In this document: piece after piece, positions 9,245 through 31,950 of the stretch
How the letters are laid out: each line of letters opens with the position of its first letter
How positions within the stretch are numbered: the stretch's first letter is position 1
Assembly (NCBI GenBank): GCA_016200145.1
Contig: JACQFH010000550.1
Span: 1-33,629, forward strand
Direction: 5' to 3'
DNA: 33,629 nt
Origin: Planctomycetia bacterium
GTDB taxonomy: Bacteria > Planctomycetota > Planctomycetia > Planctomycetales > Planctomycetaceae
Program-made: the position numbers and the translations under genes
The notes under the pieces: generated by a model
The model's database searches: none
Told to the model about the DNA's origin: nothing
What the model saw: the letters and a program-made list of their open reading frames with translations, nothing else

Positions 9245-9799
9245 ATGAACGAGACCGAGATCTACGAGCTGGTGTGCCTCGCCCAGGCCGGGAACCGGGA
9301 TGCCTTCGACAGTCTGGTGCAGCGGACGGAGTCGATGGTGTTCGCCGTCGTGCTGCGCCGGCTGCGCAACCGGTCTGAAGCGCTGGAAGTGACGCAGGAC
9401 GTGTTCATTCAGGTGCTGCGGAAGATCGGGCAGCTTCGCGATCCCGAGCGGTTCGGGGGCTGGCTGCGCAGGATCGCCGTGCGCCTGGCCATCAACCGGG
9501 CCGTCCGGCGTCCGCGGGAAGTGCTGGGCGACAACGCCGTGCTGGGAGGGATGCGCGCCGAAACGGTCAACCCGTTCGAACGCGTGATCGCTTCCGAAAA
9601 CGCGGCTTGCGTCCGAGACTGCATGAACCGGCTGCGCGACCTCGACCGCCGGACGCTGCTGGCGTTCTACTTCGAAGGCCGTTCGCTGCAGGAGATGAGC
9701 GCCGAGTTCGACAGCCCGGTCGGCACGATCAAGCGCCGGCTGCACACGGCCCGGAACAGGCTGCGCGACAAGCTCAGCGACTTGCAGCTCGTCGGGTAA
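9245..9799 (+). CDS. ECF-subfamily RNA polymerase sigma factor
   Basis: 184 residues, the normal ECF length. Region 2: ELVCLAQAGNRDAFDSLVQR, TQDVFIQVLRKIGQLRDPER and FGGWLRRIAVRLAINR. Region 4: LRDLDRRTLLAFYFEGRSLQ and FDSPVGTIKRRLHTARNRLR. It directs RNA polymerase to alternative promoters. The ATG at 9245 has a G/A-rich site (GGGAGGG) about 8 nt upstream. There is no neighbouring anti-sigma gene and no C-terminal extension, unlike the ECF factor at 3687. Target genes unknown. Confidence 0.93.
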   Translation: MNETEIYELVCLAQAGNRDAFDSLVQRTESMVFAVVLRRLRNRSEALEVTQDVFIQVLRKIGQLRDPERFGGWLRRIAVRLAINRAVRRPREVLGDNAVLGGMRAETVNPFERVIASENAACVRDCMNRLRDLDRRTLLAFYFEGRSLQEMSAEFDSPVGTIKRRLHTARNRLRDKLSDLQLVG

Positions 9800-9811
9800 T
9801 TTGAGTGCGTC

Positions 9812-9877
9812 GTTTAGCGGCGACGCGCAGCGGAGCATCTTTCCTGAGAAATGCTTCGCTGCGCGGCGCCGCTAAAC
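9812..9877. repeat. Long inverted repeat between convergent genes, likely bidirectional terminator
   Basis: GTTTAGCGGCG plus CGCGCAGCG on the left pairs with CGCTGCGCG plus GCGCCGCTAAAC on the right, and GAGCAT/ATGCTTC close the stem around CTTTCCTGAGA. A T-run follows at 9879-9883. It lies between the ECF gene and the minus-strand peptidase gene. A similar arm occurs at 22497. Confidence 0.6.
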
Positions 9878-9881
9878 ATTT

Positions 9882-10646
9882 TTACTTCCCGTCGCGCGAG
9901 TCGACTTCCCACAGTTTTTTCAGCAGCGCGAACATCCGCGGGTCGTGCCGTTCGAGTTCCGACCGCACGAACGGGTAGAAATCGTTGGTCCCGAAGAACG
10001 CCTCGCTCTGCTCGGCGAAGTACTCCTGCTGGTTCGTGAGCGCGTAGTGGCGTTGCCTGCGGCCGTTGATATGCAGCACGTCCTCGTAGAGCCGTTCTTC
10101 TTTGGCCGCGGCGAGTGCGGCGGCCAGCTCGCCGTTTTCGAAGCCCGACTCTACGACCTGGTGATGATATCCGTGGGCCAGTTCGTGAAAGACCATCCAC
10201 GGCTGCTGCTTCGTCCACGTGAGAAAGTTCTTCGCGTTGGCGACTTCGATGCACCGCGCTTTGTCCGGATTCATGTCGTGCTCGCGGAGCCAGCCCGCGT
10301 CCGGGTGGTAGCACATGCAGGGATGATGCGGCTCCGCAAGCTCGACCCACGCCGGGATCTTCCGCAGCCTGGCGACCGCCTCCCGCGGCACCATCCGCGT
10401 GATCTGGTAGAGCTGCACTTTGAGCAGCGCCAGCGTCTCGGCACACAACTCGGGCTCGTCGGCCTCAAATTTCCGGTTGAGAAACACCTTCCACCCCTCG
10501 ACCTCGCGAATCGCATACTGGTCGGTGGGCTCGAAAGGAATCTTTACTTCCGTGGGTTCCGCGCCGGTGACCACGACGGGCAACATCCCGACAAACGCCA
10601 GGATTGCCAGACAAACGAGTGCCAGGAAATGTCTGAATGAACACAT
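9882..10646 (-). CDS. Secreted HExxH metallopeptidase-like protein
   Basis: 254 residues from the ATG at 10646, which has GCAGG 6 nt upstream; an in-frame ATG at 10664 would add six residues. A signal peptide (about 1-29, hydrophobic ALVCLAILAFVGMLPVVV) exports it. The zinc motif HELAH (H154, E155, H158) sits in WMVFHELAHGYHHQV. About 50 residues later NQQEYFAEQSEAFFG supplies glutamates (E208, E212) that fit the third ligand of gluzincins, as in lethal-factor-like domains. This supports a working zinc peptidase, with substrate unknown. The gene is last of two on this strand after the SUMF1-like gene, but a hairpin between them argues for separate units. Confidence 0.8.
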   Translation of the reverse strand: MCSFRHFLALVCLAILAFVGMLPVVVTGAEPTEVKIPFEPTDQYAIREVEGWKVFLNRKFEADEPELCAETLALLKVQLYQITRMVPREAVARLRKIPAWVELAEPHHPCMCYHPDAGWLREHDMNPDKARCIEVANAKNFLTWTKQQPWMVFHELAHGYHHQVVESGFENGELAAALAAAKEERLYEDVLHINGRRQRHYALTNQQEYFAEQSEAFFGTNDFYPFVRSELERHDPRMFALLKKLWEVDSRDGK

Positions 10647-26105: not shown

Positions 26106-27155
26106 GTGGCCCAGAAACCAGACCCCAAAGCTCCCCCCCGGCAGGCCGACGCGCCGCGGATCATCATCAGCGCCTTCGCCGACGAGGCGGCCAATTCGAA
26201 ATCGGTCGTCGAGCAGTTCGCCGTGCTCGCCGCCCTCGGTCTCGAATACTACAGCCCCCGCTTCCTGAACGTCTCGGGCGAAGTCAAAAACATCATGAAG
26301 CTCGACAAGGCCGAGCTCAAAACCGTCAAGTCGTTGCAGGACGATTACGGTCTCTCGGTCACGAGCATCGGGTCGCCGATCGGCAAGGTCAAGCTGCTCG
26401 ACCAGGACGACGGCACGCACAACCGGTTCGTTCCGTTCTCCAAATACCTGAAAGAAGACGTGGCGATCGCCATCGACCGGGCCAGGGCCCTCGACGCGAA
26501 GATGATCCGCGGGTTTTCGTTCTATCATCCGCGCGGGACGAACCCCGTACCCCACGTTCCCCAGGCCGCCGAGCAGCTCACCGCGATCGCCGACAAATGC
26601 GCCGAAGCCGACATCGTGTTTGCACTCGAGGTGGAGGCCAATCTGATCGGCCAGAACGGTCGCCTGATGGCCGACCTGGCCCACCGCGTCGACCGGCCGA
26701 ACCTCGTCTGCATCTTCGATGGCGGCAATATCTCATCGCAGAACCTCGATCCGGTGAAGTGCTTCGCCGAGTTCCAGGCGATGCGCAAATATCTCGGTTA
26801 TCTGCACATCAAAGACTACCGCATCGATGAGAAGCTGGAATGGACGGGAGTCGTCGACGAAGAGCGGTTGAAGAACTTCGTGCCCTGCGACCGGGGCGAC
26901 AGCGGCCATGAAGCCATCTTCCGCGACCTGCGCGACAACCTGCCGGCGATCGACCGGAAGATGAAGCGGCTGGGGCTGCCGGGAGTGTTCCTCGAGCTCG
27001 AGCCGCACCTGAAAGGGGGCGGCCAGTTCGGAGGTTTCAGCGGGCCCGATGGGCTGGGGGTCGCCTGCCGGGCGCTGTGCCGGCTGCTCGATTACGTCGG
27101 CCTCGACTACCAGTTGCGGACGTTCGACCACATCCGCCAGGCGCGGGGGTTCTGA
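26106..27155 (+). CDS. Xylose isomerase-like TIM barrel (sugar phosphate isomerase/epimerase family)
   Basis: 349 residues from a GTG at 26106. The AP-endonuclease-2/xylose-isomerase-like barrel shows [60 protein letters not shown] (metal Glu), [13 protein letters not shown] (Asp), [14 protein letters not shown] (His) and [14 protein letters not shown] (Glu). These metal ligands support an active isomerase or epimerase of a sugar, substrate unknown. The next gene starts directly after its TGA, so the two are one operon. Confidence 0.87.
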
Positions 27156-27679: not shown

Positions 27680-27777
27680 TACTATTCAATTGGTTCCGGT
27701 CAATTGGTTCCGGCCGAAGACCAGGCCGGGGTTCATCCGTGGCTTTAATGCCCGTTACCTTTGGGGATACGGAATTC

Positions 27778-30700
27778 ATGTTGCGGCTCAGCTCAGTCGA
27801 GAATGTTCGCGCCTCAGGCGCTGATTCCGTGGCGTCGCTTTCACGCTCAGGCAAATCCCGATTCCCGCGGGTTGTGGCTGCACTGGTCGCCCTGCTGCTC
27901 CTGCTGAACGTGGTGGCCGGTTGCAGCGACGGAACGACGCCGACCGGCAAACCCACGGCCGCGCCGACGGTGAATCATTCGGTCGCGGCACAATCCCCAG
28001 TGGAACCGCAGCAAGTCGTGGCTCAATCCGGCCCGACTGACAATCCCGGCGTGACGGAATCCGACACCGAGTTGGCCAGCGAGCCGGAATCGTCTGCGGC
28101 TGATCCAGAAACTGCAGACTCGACCCTTGCCGATTCAGTCGCCGAGGAGGATGTCGACGAAGTCCAATTGGCCGCGGCCGACCCCAAGAAGAAGCCTGCC
28201 GCGAAGAAACAGGGGCCGCGGTACACGATCAAGCAGGACCACGACCCCAACGGCATCGGCAAGTTCTACATGGGACGCGAAATCGCCCACGTGATGGGCT
28301 TTCAGGGTGGCGGGGCGACCTGGCTCGACCGCCCGGAGCGAGAGCAGGAAGAGCAGTCATCCAAGATGATTGAAGAGCTCAAGCTTCAGCCCGGGCAGGT
28401 CGTCGCCGACATCGGCGCGGGAACCGGCCGGCTCACGCTGATGATGGCCGAGAAAGTCGGCAATGACGGCAAGGTGCTGGCGGTCGACGTGCAGCAGGAG
28501 ATGCTCGACATCATCTCGGTGAAGATTCGCCAGCGGAACATCAAGAATATCGAGCTGGTCAAGGGCACGATCAAGTCGCCCAAACTCAAGAAGAACAGCC
28601 TCGATCTCGCACTGTTCGTTGACGTCTATCACGAGTTCGCCTTCCCCTACGAGATGATGGTCGAAATCTCGAAGGCGATGAAAGTCGGCGGACGCGTCGT
28701 GCTCGTCGAGTTCCGCATGGAGGACGAAACCGTCCCCATCAAGCTTGTCCACAAGATGACCGAGGCCCAGGCCAAAAAGGAGCTGAGCGTTCCCGAACTG
28801 CGCCTCAAGTGGACCGAGACGATCGGCACGCTCCCCTGGCAGCACATCCTCGTCTTCGAACGGTTGCCCGACACCGACGAAGAAAAAGACGAGAAAGACG
28901 GCGATAAGCCTGAAAAGACCGAAGAAGGCGCGAAAGGCTCTGCGTCGGCATTCCCCCCAACACCCAATACGCAGGACCCCAAAGACAAGCTGTCGACTCC
29001 GGAAGAGGCGCTGGCGAAGATTGTGCTTCCGCCGGGCTTTTCCGCCACGCTGTTCGCTGCCGAGCCCGACGTGCAGCAGCCGATCGCCCTCACGACCGAC
29101 GAGCGCGGCCGACTGTGGATCGCCGAGAATTACACCTATGCCGAGAGCAAAGTGAACTTTGCGCCGGAGCTTCGCGACCGCATCGTGATCCTCGAAGACA
29201 CGGACGGCGACGGCCGGTTCGACGAGCGGACCGTCTTCTGGGACGAAGGCCAGAAGCTGACCAGCATCGAGGTCGGTTTCGGCGGCGTGTGGGCGCTGTG
29301 CGCGCCGCACCTGTTGTTCATTCCCGATACGAACCGCGACGACATTCCCGACGGCAAGCCGGTCGTCGTCCTCGACGGCTGGGACGACAGTGCCGTGCGG
29401 CACAACATCGTCAACGGCCTCAAGTGGGGGCCCGACGGCTGGCTTTACGGACGACACGGCATTCTCGCCACGTCGCAGGTCGGCAAACCCGGCGCCGCGC
29501 CATCGCAGCGCGTGCCCATCAACTGCGGCATCTGGCGATACCATCCCACGCGCGGCGTCTTCGAAGCCGTCGCCCACGGCACCACGAACTCGTGGGGCTT
29601 CGATTACGACGACCATGGCGAGATGTTCTTCATCAACACGGTGATCGGCCACCTGTGGCACATCGTGCCGGGGGCGCATTACCGGCGGATGTACGGCACC
29701 GATCTCAATCCGTACGTCTATCAACTGATTGAACAATCCGCCGATCACTTTCACTGGGACACGGGCGAAGCCTGGAACGATATCCGCAAGGGAGTCACGC
29801 CCACGACCGACAAAGCCGGCGGCGGTCACGCGCATTCCGGCATGATGATCTACCTCGGCGGCAACTGGCCCGGCGAGTTCCGCAACACGATGTTCACCGT
29901 CAACCTGCATGGCCGGCGGCTGAACAACGACCGGCTCGAGCGATCGGGCGCCGGATACGTGGGCCGGCACGCCCCCGATCACGTGCGGTTCGACGATCTG
30001 TGGTTTCGCGGCATCGACCTGATCTACGGGGCTGATGGCGGCGTTTTCGTCGCCGACTGGTCCGACGTGGGCGAGTGCCACGAAAACGACGGAGTCCATC
30101 GCACGTCGGGGCGCATTTACAAGATCACGCATGGAAAGCCCAGGCCGACGTTCGGATTCGACATGGCCAACGCCACCGATGCCGACCTCGTCCGCGCCCA
30201 GCTCAATCCGAACGACTGGATCGTGCGCCAGGCCCGGCGCATCTTGCAGGAACGGGCCGCCAGCGGTCGCGATCTGGCCCACGCCCGCACGCTGCTGTTC
30301 GAGCTGCTGAATGGCGACCAGAAGATCCCGCAGAAGCTGCGGGCCCTGTGGTGCCTGAATTCGATCGGGGCCCTCGACGAGCCGCGCTTGATCGGGCTCT
30401 TCACGCACGACGACGAACATATCCGCGCCTGGGCCGTGCGGTTGCTGGCCGATCGCGGAGAGTTTTCCCCGGCAGCCGTACACGAATTGCAGCTGCTCGC
30501 CGGACGGGAAACGTCGGGCCTTGTGCAGGTGTATCTGGCGTCGACGCTGCAGCGCCTCGATTTCGAGCAGCGCTGGCCGATCGCCGAGGCGCTTGTCTCG
30601 CGAGACGAATTCGCCAGCGACCGCGAATTGCCGCTGATGGTCTGGTACGGCATCGAGCCGGCGGTCGTCCAGCAGCCGTCGCGCGCCGTGAATCTGGCGC

Positions 30701-31896
30701 TGGCCAGCCGGTTTCCCGTGGTGCGGCAGCACGTGGCGCGGCGCCTGACGGTCGAAATTGAGCGGATGACGGAACCGGTGAACGCCCTGGTGCAGCGCCT
30801 GGCAGAGTCCGGTGATCCAGTCGTGCAAATCGATCTGCTGACCGGCATGACGCAGGCGCTGCGCGGTTGGCGCAAAGCGCCGGTTCCGCCCGCCTGGACG
30901 AGCGTGGCCGAGAAGCTGACCGCCTCTGCCGACAACCGCGTGCATCGGCTGGCACGGGAATTGGCGGTTGTGTTTGGCGACGGCCGGGCGATCGGCGAGC
31001 TGCGGCAGATCGTGAACGATGGCAATGCCGAGGCCGACTCGCGGCAGCAGGCCCTGCGGACGCTTGTTGAAAGCCGTCCGGACGATCTGCCAGCACTCCT
31101 GGCGAAGCTGGTGGGTGACCGGGTTCTGGCAAACGAAGCCGTGCGCGGACTGGCGGCGTGCGAGGTCGCCGACACACCCCGCCTGATTTTCGACGCCTTT
31201 CCCCGTCTCGATCCCGAGGGGCGTTCGATCGCCATTAATACGCTGGTGTCGCGCGCCGCCTTTGCCAGCGCGCTGCTCGACGCAGTGGCTGCCGGGCGCA
31301 TCGGGCGCGGCGACCTGTCGGCATTTCACGCCCGGCAGATTCGCAGCTTTGACGACGCGGCGCTTACCGAAAAGCTGACGCAGGTGTGGGGCGAAACCCG
31401 CGTCACCGACGCCGAGAAACGCAAACTGATCGACCGCTACAAGGGCCTCTTGGCGCCAGAGCGCCTGGCGGGGGCCAATCTTTCGGCGGGGCGCGGGCTG
31501 TTCAATAAGACGTGCGCCGCCTGCCACGTGCTGTATGGACAAGGGAAATCGGCGGGGCCGGATCTGACCGGCTCGAACCGCAGGAACCACGAGTACCTGC
31601 TCGAAAACATCATCGACCCCAACGCCTCGGTGGCCGTCGATTTTCGGATGACGGTCGTTGCGCTGAACAGCGGCCGGGTCGTCACCGGCCTGATCGTCGA
31701 AAAGACCGACAAAACGCTGACGCTTCAGACTCAGAACGAGCGGGTTGTCGTCGATAAGTCGGAGATCGAAGAGATGAAAGGGACCACGTCGTCGCTGATG
31801 CCCGAGGGGCTGCTCACCAACCTCAACGACAACGAATTCCGCGACCTCGCCGCGTACCTGATGTCCACCGAACAAGTCCCACTGCCGGCACCGTAA
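27778..31896 (+). CDS. Exported lipoprotein fusing a SAM methyltransferase, a PVC-type dehydrogenase propeller and a cytochrome c domain
   Basis: 1372 residues from the ATG at 27778, with GGA 5 nt upstream; earlier in-frame starts at 27739 and 27748 are possible. Signal VVAALVALLLLLNVVAGC has a lipobox with Cys49. Residues 50-150 are low-complexity, rich in Pro, Ser, Glu. About 152-367 is a class I SAM methyltransferase: FYMGREIAHVMGFQGGGATW, VVADIGAGTGRLTLMMAEKV (SAM loop 211-219), VLAVDVQQEML, ALFVDVYHEFAFPYEM. A charged linker (about 365-407) follows. Then comes a PVC-type membrane-bound dehydrogenase propeller (ALAKIVLPPGFSATLFAAEP, GLKWGPDGWLYGRHG, ADWSDVGECHENDG). After HEAT-like repeats, a cytochrome c domain has CAACH (C1246) and a possible axial Met in SSLMPEGLL. 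The dehydrogenase-cytochrome half is common in planctomycetes; the methyltransferase is usually a separate gene. The SAM loop looks intact. Donor supply outside the cytoplasm is unexplained. Confidence 0.88.
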   Translation: MLRLSSVENVRASGADSVASLSRSGKSRFPRVVAALVALLLLLNVVAGCSDGTTPTGKPTAAPTVNHSVAAQSPVEPQQVVAQSGPTDNPGVTESDTELASEPESSAADPETADSTLADSVAEEDVDEVQLAAADPKKKPAAKKQGPRYTIKQDHDPNGIGKFYMGREIAHVMGFQGGGATWLDRPEREQEEQSSKMIEELKLQPGQVVADIGAGTGRLTLMMAEKVGNDGKVLAVDVQQEMLDIISVKIRQRNIKNIELVKGTIKSPKLKKNSLDLALFVDVYHEFAFPYEMMVEISKAMKVGGRVVLVEFRMEDETVPIKLVHKMTEAQAKKELSVPELRLKWTETIGTLPWQHILVFERLPDTDEEKDEKDGDKPEKTEEGAKGSASAFPPTPNTQDPKDKLSTPEEALAKIVLPPGFSATLFAAEPDVQQPIALTTDERGRLWIAENYTYAESKVNFAPELRDRIVILEDTDGDGRFDERTVFWDEGQKLTSIEVGFGGVWALCAPHLLFIPDTNRDDIPDGKPVVVLDGWDDSAVRHNIVNGLKWGPDGWLYGRHGILATSQVGKPGAAPSQRVPINCGIWRYHPTRGVFEAVAHGTTNSWGFDYDDHGEMFFINTVIGHLWHIVPGAHYRRMYGTDLNPYVYQLIEQSADHFHWDTGEAWNDIRKGVTPTTDKAGGGHAHSGMMIYLGGNWPGEFRNTMFTVNLHGRRLNNDRLERSGAGYVGRHAPDHVRFDDLWFRGIDLIYGADGGVFVADWSDVGECHENDGVHRTSGRIYKITHGKPRPTFGFDMANATDADLVRAQLNPNDWIVRQARRILQERAASGRDLAHARTLLFELLNGDQKIPQKLRALWCLNSIGALDEPRLIGLFTHDDEHIRAWAVRLLADRGEFSPAAVHELQLLAGRETSGLVQVYLASTLQRLDFEQRWPIAEALVSRDEFASDRELPLMVWYGIEPAVVQQPSRAVNLALASRFPVVRQHVARRLTVEIERMTEPVNALVQRLAESGDPVVQIDLLTGMTQALRGWRKAPVPPAWTSVAEKLTASADNRVHRLARELAVVFGDGRAIGELRQIVNDGNAEADSRQQALRTLVESRPDDLPALLAKLVGDRVLANEAVRGLAACEVADTPRLIFDAFPRLDPEGRSIAINTLVSRAAFASALLDAVAAGRIGRGDLSAFHARQIRSFDDAALTEKLTQVWGETRVTDAEKRKLIDRYKGLLAPERLAGANLSAGRGLFNKTCAACHVLYGQGKSAGPDLTGSNRRNHEYLLENIIDPNASVAVDFRMTVVALNSGRVVTGLIVEKTDKTLTLQTQNERVVVDKSEIEEMKGTTSSLMPEGLLTNLNDNEFRDLAAYLMSTEQVPLPAP

Positions 31897-31950
31897 TGGC
31901 ACGGCGGGCGACTGAATCGTCATCGACGGAACGCGCAAACGAATGGCCCC

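Follow-up and report, generated by a model that had tools for sequence, protein, structure and literature searches.

The stretch of DNA analyzed here (the window) covers positions 1 to 33,629 of contig JACQFH010000550.1 from a Planctomycetia bacterium of the Planctomycetaceae (assembly GCA_016200145.1). It carries a gene that joins an S-adenosylmethionine (SAM)-dependent class I methyltransferase domain (MT), preceded by an export signal, to a PVC-type dehydrogenase and a cytochrome c. The gene is a single uninterrupted open reading frame (ORF) of 1,372 amino acids (aa), running from an ATG at 27778 to 31896 on the forward strand, with an in-frame GTG at 27739 as an alternative start. One chain holds, in order, a lipoprotein signal, the MT, a linker, a DUF7133/TIGR02604 propeller, a HEAT-like region, and a TIGR02603 cytochrome c domain (Table 1). 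Pfam and NCBIfam profiles matched Methyltransf_31/25/11 at aa 205 to 334, DUF7133 at aa 408 to 763 (E value, 1.9e-59), TIGR02604 at aa 420 to 785 (E value, 3e-118; 395 bits against a cutoff of 122), HEAT_2 at aa 840 to 916 (a weak match in the window protein), and TIGR02603 at aa 1234 to 1363 (E value, 2e-34; 118.6 bits against a cutoff of 68); a cytochrome c profile also matched. An earlier reading of the window from its letters and open frames (the sequence-only reading) had described a lipoprotein signal, an intact SAM loop, and a dehydrogenase-HEAT-CAACH unit in one frame, and ORF, profiles, and motifs confirm this, the HEAT match being weak. Its MT boundary (aa 152 to 367) was right within a few residues (aa 151 to 362 here), and its "charged linker" is true of the window copy, and of this copy only.

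The MT search within the order covered 170 genomes (one family); below, genomes carry G numbers and loci L numbers. MT and dehydrogenase share a frame in six genomes of two genera, namely, that of the window, a second species of its genus (G057), and four genomes of another genus (G163, G164, G165, and G166). The fused frame is full length in four genomes besides that of the window and stops at 907 aa in G163. The sequence-only reading had proposed searching for the fusion across planctomycetes and had named an error at the linker, or a unique copy of halves that are otherwise always separate, as ways in which it could be wrong. Both fail: independent assemblies carry the same fusion with its frame kept. 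The fusion is thereby confirmed as real and not as an assembly error. Between the two congeners, the linker (aa 367 to 407) is 44% identical, yet the frame is maintained. The dN/dS ratios between window and G057 (approximate, with high dS) were 0.066 for the MT, 0.047 for the propeller, and 0.073 for the cytochrome; by this estimate, the MT is under strong purifying selection (about 0.07). The fused copy is the sole close MT in every fused genome examined except G165, which has a second copy at a contig edge with its linker continuing the same way; other matches are distant paralogues. Long PVC frames (~1,380 aa) in G064 to G066 were rejected as MT fusions.

The MT domain was modeled with high confidence (AF2; mean pLDDT, 93.7) as a Rossmann-like, seven-stranded methyltransferase fold. 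Its best solved match was an Aquifex aeolicus SAM-dependent methyltransferase (3dh0; Z, 25.6; 190 residues; root mean square deviation, 1.9; 22% identity), and structural matches included SpnF, a [4+2]-cyclase, with a Trm112-methyltransferase complex (6f5z) among the best. Residues D211, G213, G215, G217, and D237 are conserved at 99 to 100% in 129 homologues, as are Q239, Y284, H285, E286, E311, R313, E315, D316, H325, Q355, and H356; an alignment of 68 sequences agrees. SAM-site motifs that are intact in sequence, together with a high-confidence fold, argue against a decayed domain. The UbiE/MenG equivalog cutoffs were not reached (49 bits against 216 for PRK00216.1-5; 46.6 against 420 for MenG_heptapren).

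The N terminus of the window protein reads KSRFPR-VVAALVALLLLLNVVAG-C49, that is, a positive n-region, a hydrophobic core, and a lipobox cysteine. Of 128 real frames, 110 have a strongly hydrophobic N-terminal segment ahead of the MT; shifting the frame lowered the count to 5 and 11, and among 47 neighboring AP_endonuc_2 genes taken as a control, 1 has such a segment. A twin-arginine motif is absent from the window protein, and a Tat-like match occurred in 3 of 129 homologues. Heme of the c type is attached outside the cytoplasmic membrane, after Sec export, so the fused cytochrome c supports export independently. Fusion partners of the MT other than AP_endonuc_2 are usually extracytoplasmic in planctomycetes, which leaves little alternative to an MT located outside.

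The MT was found in 157 of the 170 genomes and in other Planctomycetota. Beyond that phylum it is known from plasmids only, with homologues 49 to 51% identical in the Comamonadaceae Comamonas and Delftia, in an uncultured bacterium, and in Geminocystis, a cyanobacterium; both translated plasmid copies begin with a signal peptide. On the IncP plasmids of Comamonas (L202) and the uncultured bacterium (L204), the exported MT lies beside a phosphatase/metallophosphoesterase gene, and in L204 the region immediately upstream holds an ABC transporter operon that includes solute-binding proteins.

Further partners emerged when the open frames surrounding the MT were read in other planctomycetes. Fusions were found to a PQQ_2 propeller (G006 and G088), a sulfatase (G198), and a 3-keto-disaccharide hydrolase/DUF1080 domain (Pfam match in G325; the same architecture by sequence in G266, G351, and G487). 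The DUF1080-like fusions (L205, L206, L207, and L174) come from four related genomes. An AP_endonuc_2 TIM barrel is joined to the MT in G498, G303, and G423 (Pfam matches) and in G523, G257, G344, and G472 (by sequence); these fusions (L171, L172, L175, L177, L180, L181, and L185) lie outside the window's order, and in the window the two are separate neighboring genes. ThuA-like partners fell below the Pfam cutoff in G470 and G297, with similar sequence in G231, G497, G281, and G436, and a ceramidase-like stretch in G059 was also below the cutoff. The MT of G347 has a C-terminal region matched to no domain. In some fusions, the MT is placed after the sulfatase or ThuA-like domains. Five further candidates (L166, L167, L170, L182, and L184) were dropped as long open frames without a visible partner domain. 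A distant paralogous methyltransferase family (L209 to L211 and L213) has the N-terminal motif VNPGINxSF/Y; a signal-like hydrophobic stretch precedes the methyltransferase in L210, L211, and L213, and L211 has a C-terminal extension.

Both halves of the fusion are of known kinds; the exported MT family is apparently undescribed and unnamed. Among methyltransferase families, only general Pfam domains matched, and the NCBIfam ones among the 25 best matches listed were all below cutoff. Among phages, the search yielded only weak, partial similarity to Listeria phage records that carry no annotation. No description of exported or periplasmic bacterial methyltransferases was found in the open-access literature, of which coverage was partial, and this counts as weak evidence that the family is new.

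In a third genus (G101 and G102), MT and dehydrogenase are encoded by two separate, neighboring genes, and one or two short frames for predicted membrane proteins intervene. There, the dehydrogenase begins with its own signal peptide, and the MT of G101 starts with a lipoprotein signal (in G102 the contig end truncates it). Dehydrogenase orthologues of other genera are not linked to the MT and likewise have signals of their own. The end of the fusion linker, FPPTPNTQDPKDKLSTPEEAL, is the counterpart of FPAPRNTQDPKDRLSTPQEAL, which directly follows the signal peptide of the separate dehydrogenase. By this correspondence, the join put a whole exported MT in the place of the dehydrogenase signal peptide and left the topology of the dehydrogenase as it was. 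In the dehydrogenase tree, the window's genus groups with the adjacent-but-separate genus (support, 97/98), which suggests that two independent MT-PVC fusions are likely. Forcing all fused copies into one clade costs 17.6 log-likelihood units, and a single origin is not rejected (approximately unbiased test, P = 0.087).

The propeller model (mean pLDDT, 78) had PQQ aldose sugar dehydrogenase and soluble glucose dehydrogenase (3das and 1c9u) as its top Foldseek matches, at 14 to 16% identity and a TM score of about 0.5 to 0.6 in a middling-confidence model. The rear half is likely to be a sugar-type dehydrogenase passing electrons to the attached cytochrome.

Upstream of the fusion gene lie an AP_endonuc_2 gene and a Trm112-like ORF (Table 1). 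In the order, loci from 80 species were compared, 68 of them with 1.8 kb or more of upstream DNA; 31 carry an AP_endonuc_2 gene ahead of the MT in the same orientation, and none carries it behind the MT or on the opposite strand. Among 100 order loci with enough upstream sequence, 39 have a Trm112-like ORF just upstream of the MT; all 43 Trm112-like matches were immediately upstream on the same strand, and the ORF often follows an AP_endonuc_2 gene (36/47). Trm112p is above the Pfam cutoff in some orthologues of the window's ORF. No Trm112-like gene was found in any of four genomes of the other fusion genus (g57) or beside the MT in 19 tested loci outside the order. In eukaryotes, class I methyltransferases are activated by Trm112; a 2017 review called its function in bacteria unknown and noted some bacterial Trm112-methyltransferase fusions (PMC5372719). 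The linkage supports the exported domain as a working methyltransferase and makes the MT a candidate partner of Trm112 in bacteria. At the same time, the linkage is puzzling, since neither the Trm112-like nor the AP_endonuc_2 protein has an export signal. At L045 (G058; 9411 to 10529, reverse strand), a Trm112-like frame runs stop-free through a hydrophobic segment into the MT; this may be a fusion of Trm112 to the methyltransferase in which the MT lies outside the membrane, or an error of the draft assembly.

Table 1. Features of the fusion gene and its upstream neighbors in the window
Feature	Position	Strand	Basis and remarks
AP_endonuc_2 (xylose-isomerase-like TIM barrel) gene, no signal peptide	26106..27155	+	Pfam; upstream member of conserved cassette with MT
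Trm112-like ORF, 81 aa	27156..27401	+	Starts right after AP_endonuc_2 stop; Pfam Trm112p, 16.7 bits (cutoff, 22)
Fusion gene, predicted exported lipoprotein methyltransferase-dehydrogenase-cytochrome c	27778..31896	+	ORF; Pfam/NCBIfam profiles
Lipoprotein signal peptide, aa 1-48, lipobox VVAG-C49	27778..27924	+	Sequence; lipobox-type N termini likewise in fused L036-L041 and in L048
Low-complexity acidic leader, aa 50-150	27925..28227	+	Poorly conserved (40% identity to L036; dN/dS 0.67 for aa 1-150)
Class I SAM-dependent MT domain, aa 151-362	28228..28863	+	Pfam; AF2 model; best fold 3dh0
SAM motif I DIGAGTG, aa 211-217	28408..28428	+	D211, G213, G215 100%, G217 99% (129 homologues)
Acidic ribose-binding motif AVDVQQEM, aa 235-242	28480..28503	+	D237 99%, Q239 100% (129 homologues)
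Putative active-site motifs VDVYHEF (aa 281-287) and VEFRMED (aa 310-316)	28618..28725	+	Y284, H285, E286, E311, R313, E315, D316 100%
Linker, aa 363-407	28864..28998	+	aa 392-412 (FPPTPNTQDPKDKLSTPEEAL) matches post-signal segment of separate dehydrogenases (L048/L059 and L064)
DUF7133/TIGR02604 propeller (PVC-type dehydrogenase), aa 408-790	28999..30147	+	Profiles; structure model
HEAT-like helical region, aa 791-1225	30148..31452	+	HEAT_2 weak here; above cutoff in homologues L038 and L040
TIGR02603 heme-binding cytochrome c domain	31477..31866	+	CAACH at 31513-31527 (aa 1246-1250)

Opposite the fusion gene runs an antisense frame of 1,193 aa (28357 to 31938, reverse strand), probably a codon-composition effect, since shorter antisense frames (660 to 998 aa) also face the fused genes in three relatives.

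We put the probability at roughly 0.5 that the fusion protein contains an active MT working outside the cytoplasm together with the dehydrogenase in one extracytoplasmic carbohydrate step. The protein would be Sec exported, lipid anchored, and extracytoplasmic, with two catalytic units. The front unit, a class I MT, would still catalyze methyl transfer with SAM delivered to the periplasm, and the rear unit, a PVC-type propeller resembling sugar dehydrogenases, would hand electrons to the cytochrome c of the same chain. Joined in this way, two enzymes of one carbohydrate-processing step would be kept together, so that a sugar-derived compound would probably be oxidized and methylated at the same place. 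The fusion and its recurrence, the signals for export, the conservation of the SAM site, the selection, the gene linkage, and the parallel fusions are observed; within this proposal, we infer the catalysis outside the cytoplasm, the SAM supply, the carbohydrate-type substrate, and the coupling of the two reactions. More tentatively, Planctomycetota and some other bacteria may perform SAM methylation outside the cytoplasm by means of an exported plug-in MT joined to sugar-processing enzymes, with methyl transfer and electron transfer to heme coupled here on one sugar-derived substrate.

Several points weigh against periplasmic methylation. As a cofactor, SAM belongs to the cytoplasm, and this analysis identified neither a periplasmic SAM pool nor a SAM transporter in bacteria. 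Export was judged from hydrophobicity, the lipobox, and partner domains. Because planctomycetes are in general rich in these partner domains, the recurrent fusions indicate "extracytoplasmic" more firmly than "same pathway." The frequent signal-less Trm112-like and AP_endonuc_2 genes ahead of the MT in the order suggest some cytoplasmic link.

That the fusion is a frame or assembly artifact, or a decaying curiosity, has next to no probability. It is true that all MT-PVC fusions sit in draft metagenome assemblies and that the G163 copy (L041), with its damaged motif I (DIGAGW) and shortened frame, is a decaying copy or a sequencing error; against this stand the full-length frame in four further genomes, the low dN/dS in both halves, and the MT-PQQ_2 fusion in G088, a single-contig genome. 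The main rival, possible though somewhat doubtful, holds that the exported MT fold has another job beside the dehydrogenase, binding S-adenosylhomocysteine, SAM, or another ligand or catalyzing, without SAM, a reaction of sugar-derived compounds in which its invariant His, Glu, and Asp residues might, for example, serve as acid and base. The many invariant residues beyond the SAM motifs, the lack of a known SAM supply outside the cytoplasm, and the existence of methyltransferase folds with other reactions (such as SpnF) fit this explanation, and parallel fusions to 3-keto-sugar-type modules point to sugar chemistry over methylation. The SAM-holding residues D211, G213, G215, G217, and D237 are conserved like the others, which would be unexpected if SAM were unused.

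Less likely than that rival, and in our judgment improbable, is a cytoplasmic role in which the MT acts before export or as an internal-start pool, with the Trm112-like protein as activator and the outside location as a by-product or disposal. The Trm112-like ORF that precedes the MT at 39 of the 100 order loci, often after AP_endonuc_2, would suit it, as would 6f5z among the best fold matches and the known activation by eukaryotic Trm112 (PMC5372719). However, the signals are of the Sec or lipoprotein type and not twin-arginine, so the chain should cross the membrane unfolded; the half with cytochrome c can function only outside; no Trm112-like gene was found in four genomes of the other fusion genus; homologues on plasmids of other phyla are likewise exported; and the MT follows sulfatase or ThuA-like domains in some fusions. 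The sequence-only reading had left three options for the exported MT. Lost catalysis is disfavored by motif I, the acidic ribose position, and an acid/base set invariant over 68 to 129 homologues; action before export is disfavored by the signals and the cytochrome c partner, with a small doubt left by the signal-less Trm112-like neighbor. Use of SAM in the periplasm is, on the sequence evidence, the best remaining of the three. That reading was right about a real, exported, and conserved fusion but missed a widely exported MT family with many other partners.

Bacterial SAM chemistry is taken to be cytoplasmic, and the question raised here is how a SAM-using enzyme could function on the outside. 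If periplasmic methylation is true, it would mean a periplasmic SAM supply and a new class of methylated extracytoplasmic products; if not, a new use of the methyltransferase fold. Because the exported MT family occurs in complete planctomycete genomes and on conjugative plasmids, this is testable now.

Among known systems, the Methyltransf_11/25/31 class I methyltransferases (3dh0; UbiE/MenG/Coq5-like) share the fold, motif I, the acidic ribose-binding motif, and overall length with the MT, which differs in being exported or lipid anchored, in its N-terminal motif GREIAxVMGxxGAxWLxRxxRExEE, and in the invariant VDVYHEF, VEFR.ED, and LPxQH. The PVC-type heme-binding CxxCH proteins ("planctomycete-specific"; TIGR02604 plus TIGR02603) share the full propeller, the HEAT-like region, and the CxxCH domain, with TIGR02604 and TIGR02603 above their curated cutoffs; here, a whole exported MT stands instead of the signal peptide, whereas separate orthologues keep their own signal. 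PQQ aldose sugar dehydrogenase and soluble glucose dehydrogenase are the closest solved folds to the propeller model, at modest scores and with the low identities given above. Trm112-methyltransferase pairs (6f5z) resemble the MT in fold and, in much of the order, in having a class I MT with an adjoining Trm112-like gene; the known pairs work in the cytoplasm, on RNA or translation factors, whereas the MT bears an export signal. To our knowledge, the 3-keto-glycoside pathways (oxidation, elimination, and hydration) have no methyltransferase step. The same broad families as in those pathways (LgdA/B1/B2/C and DUF1080) recur among the partners and neighbors of the MT, namely, AP_endonuc_2, DUF1080, and ThuA-like proteins (PMC7676230, PMC9007349).

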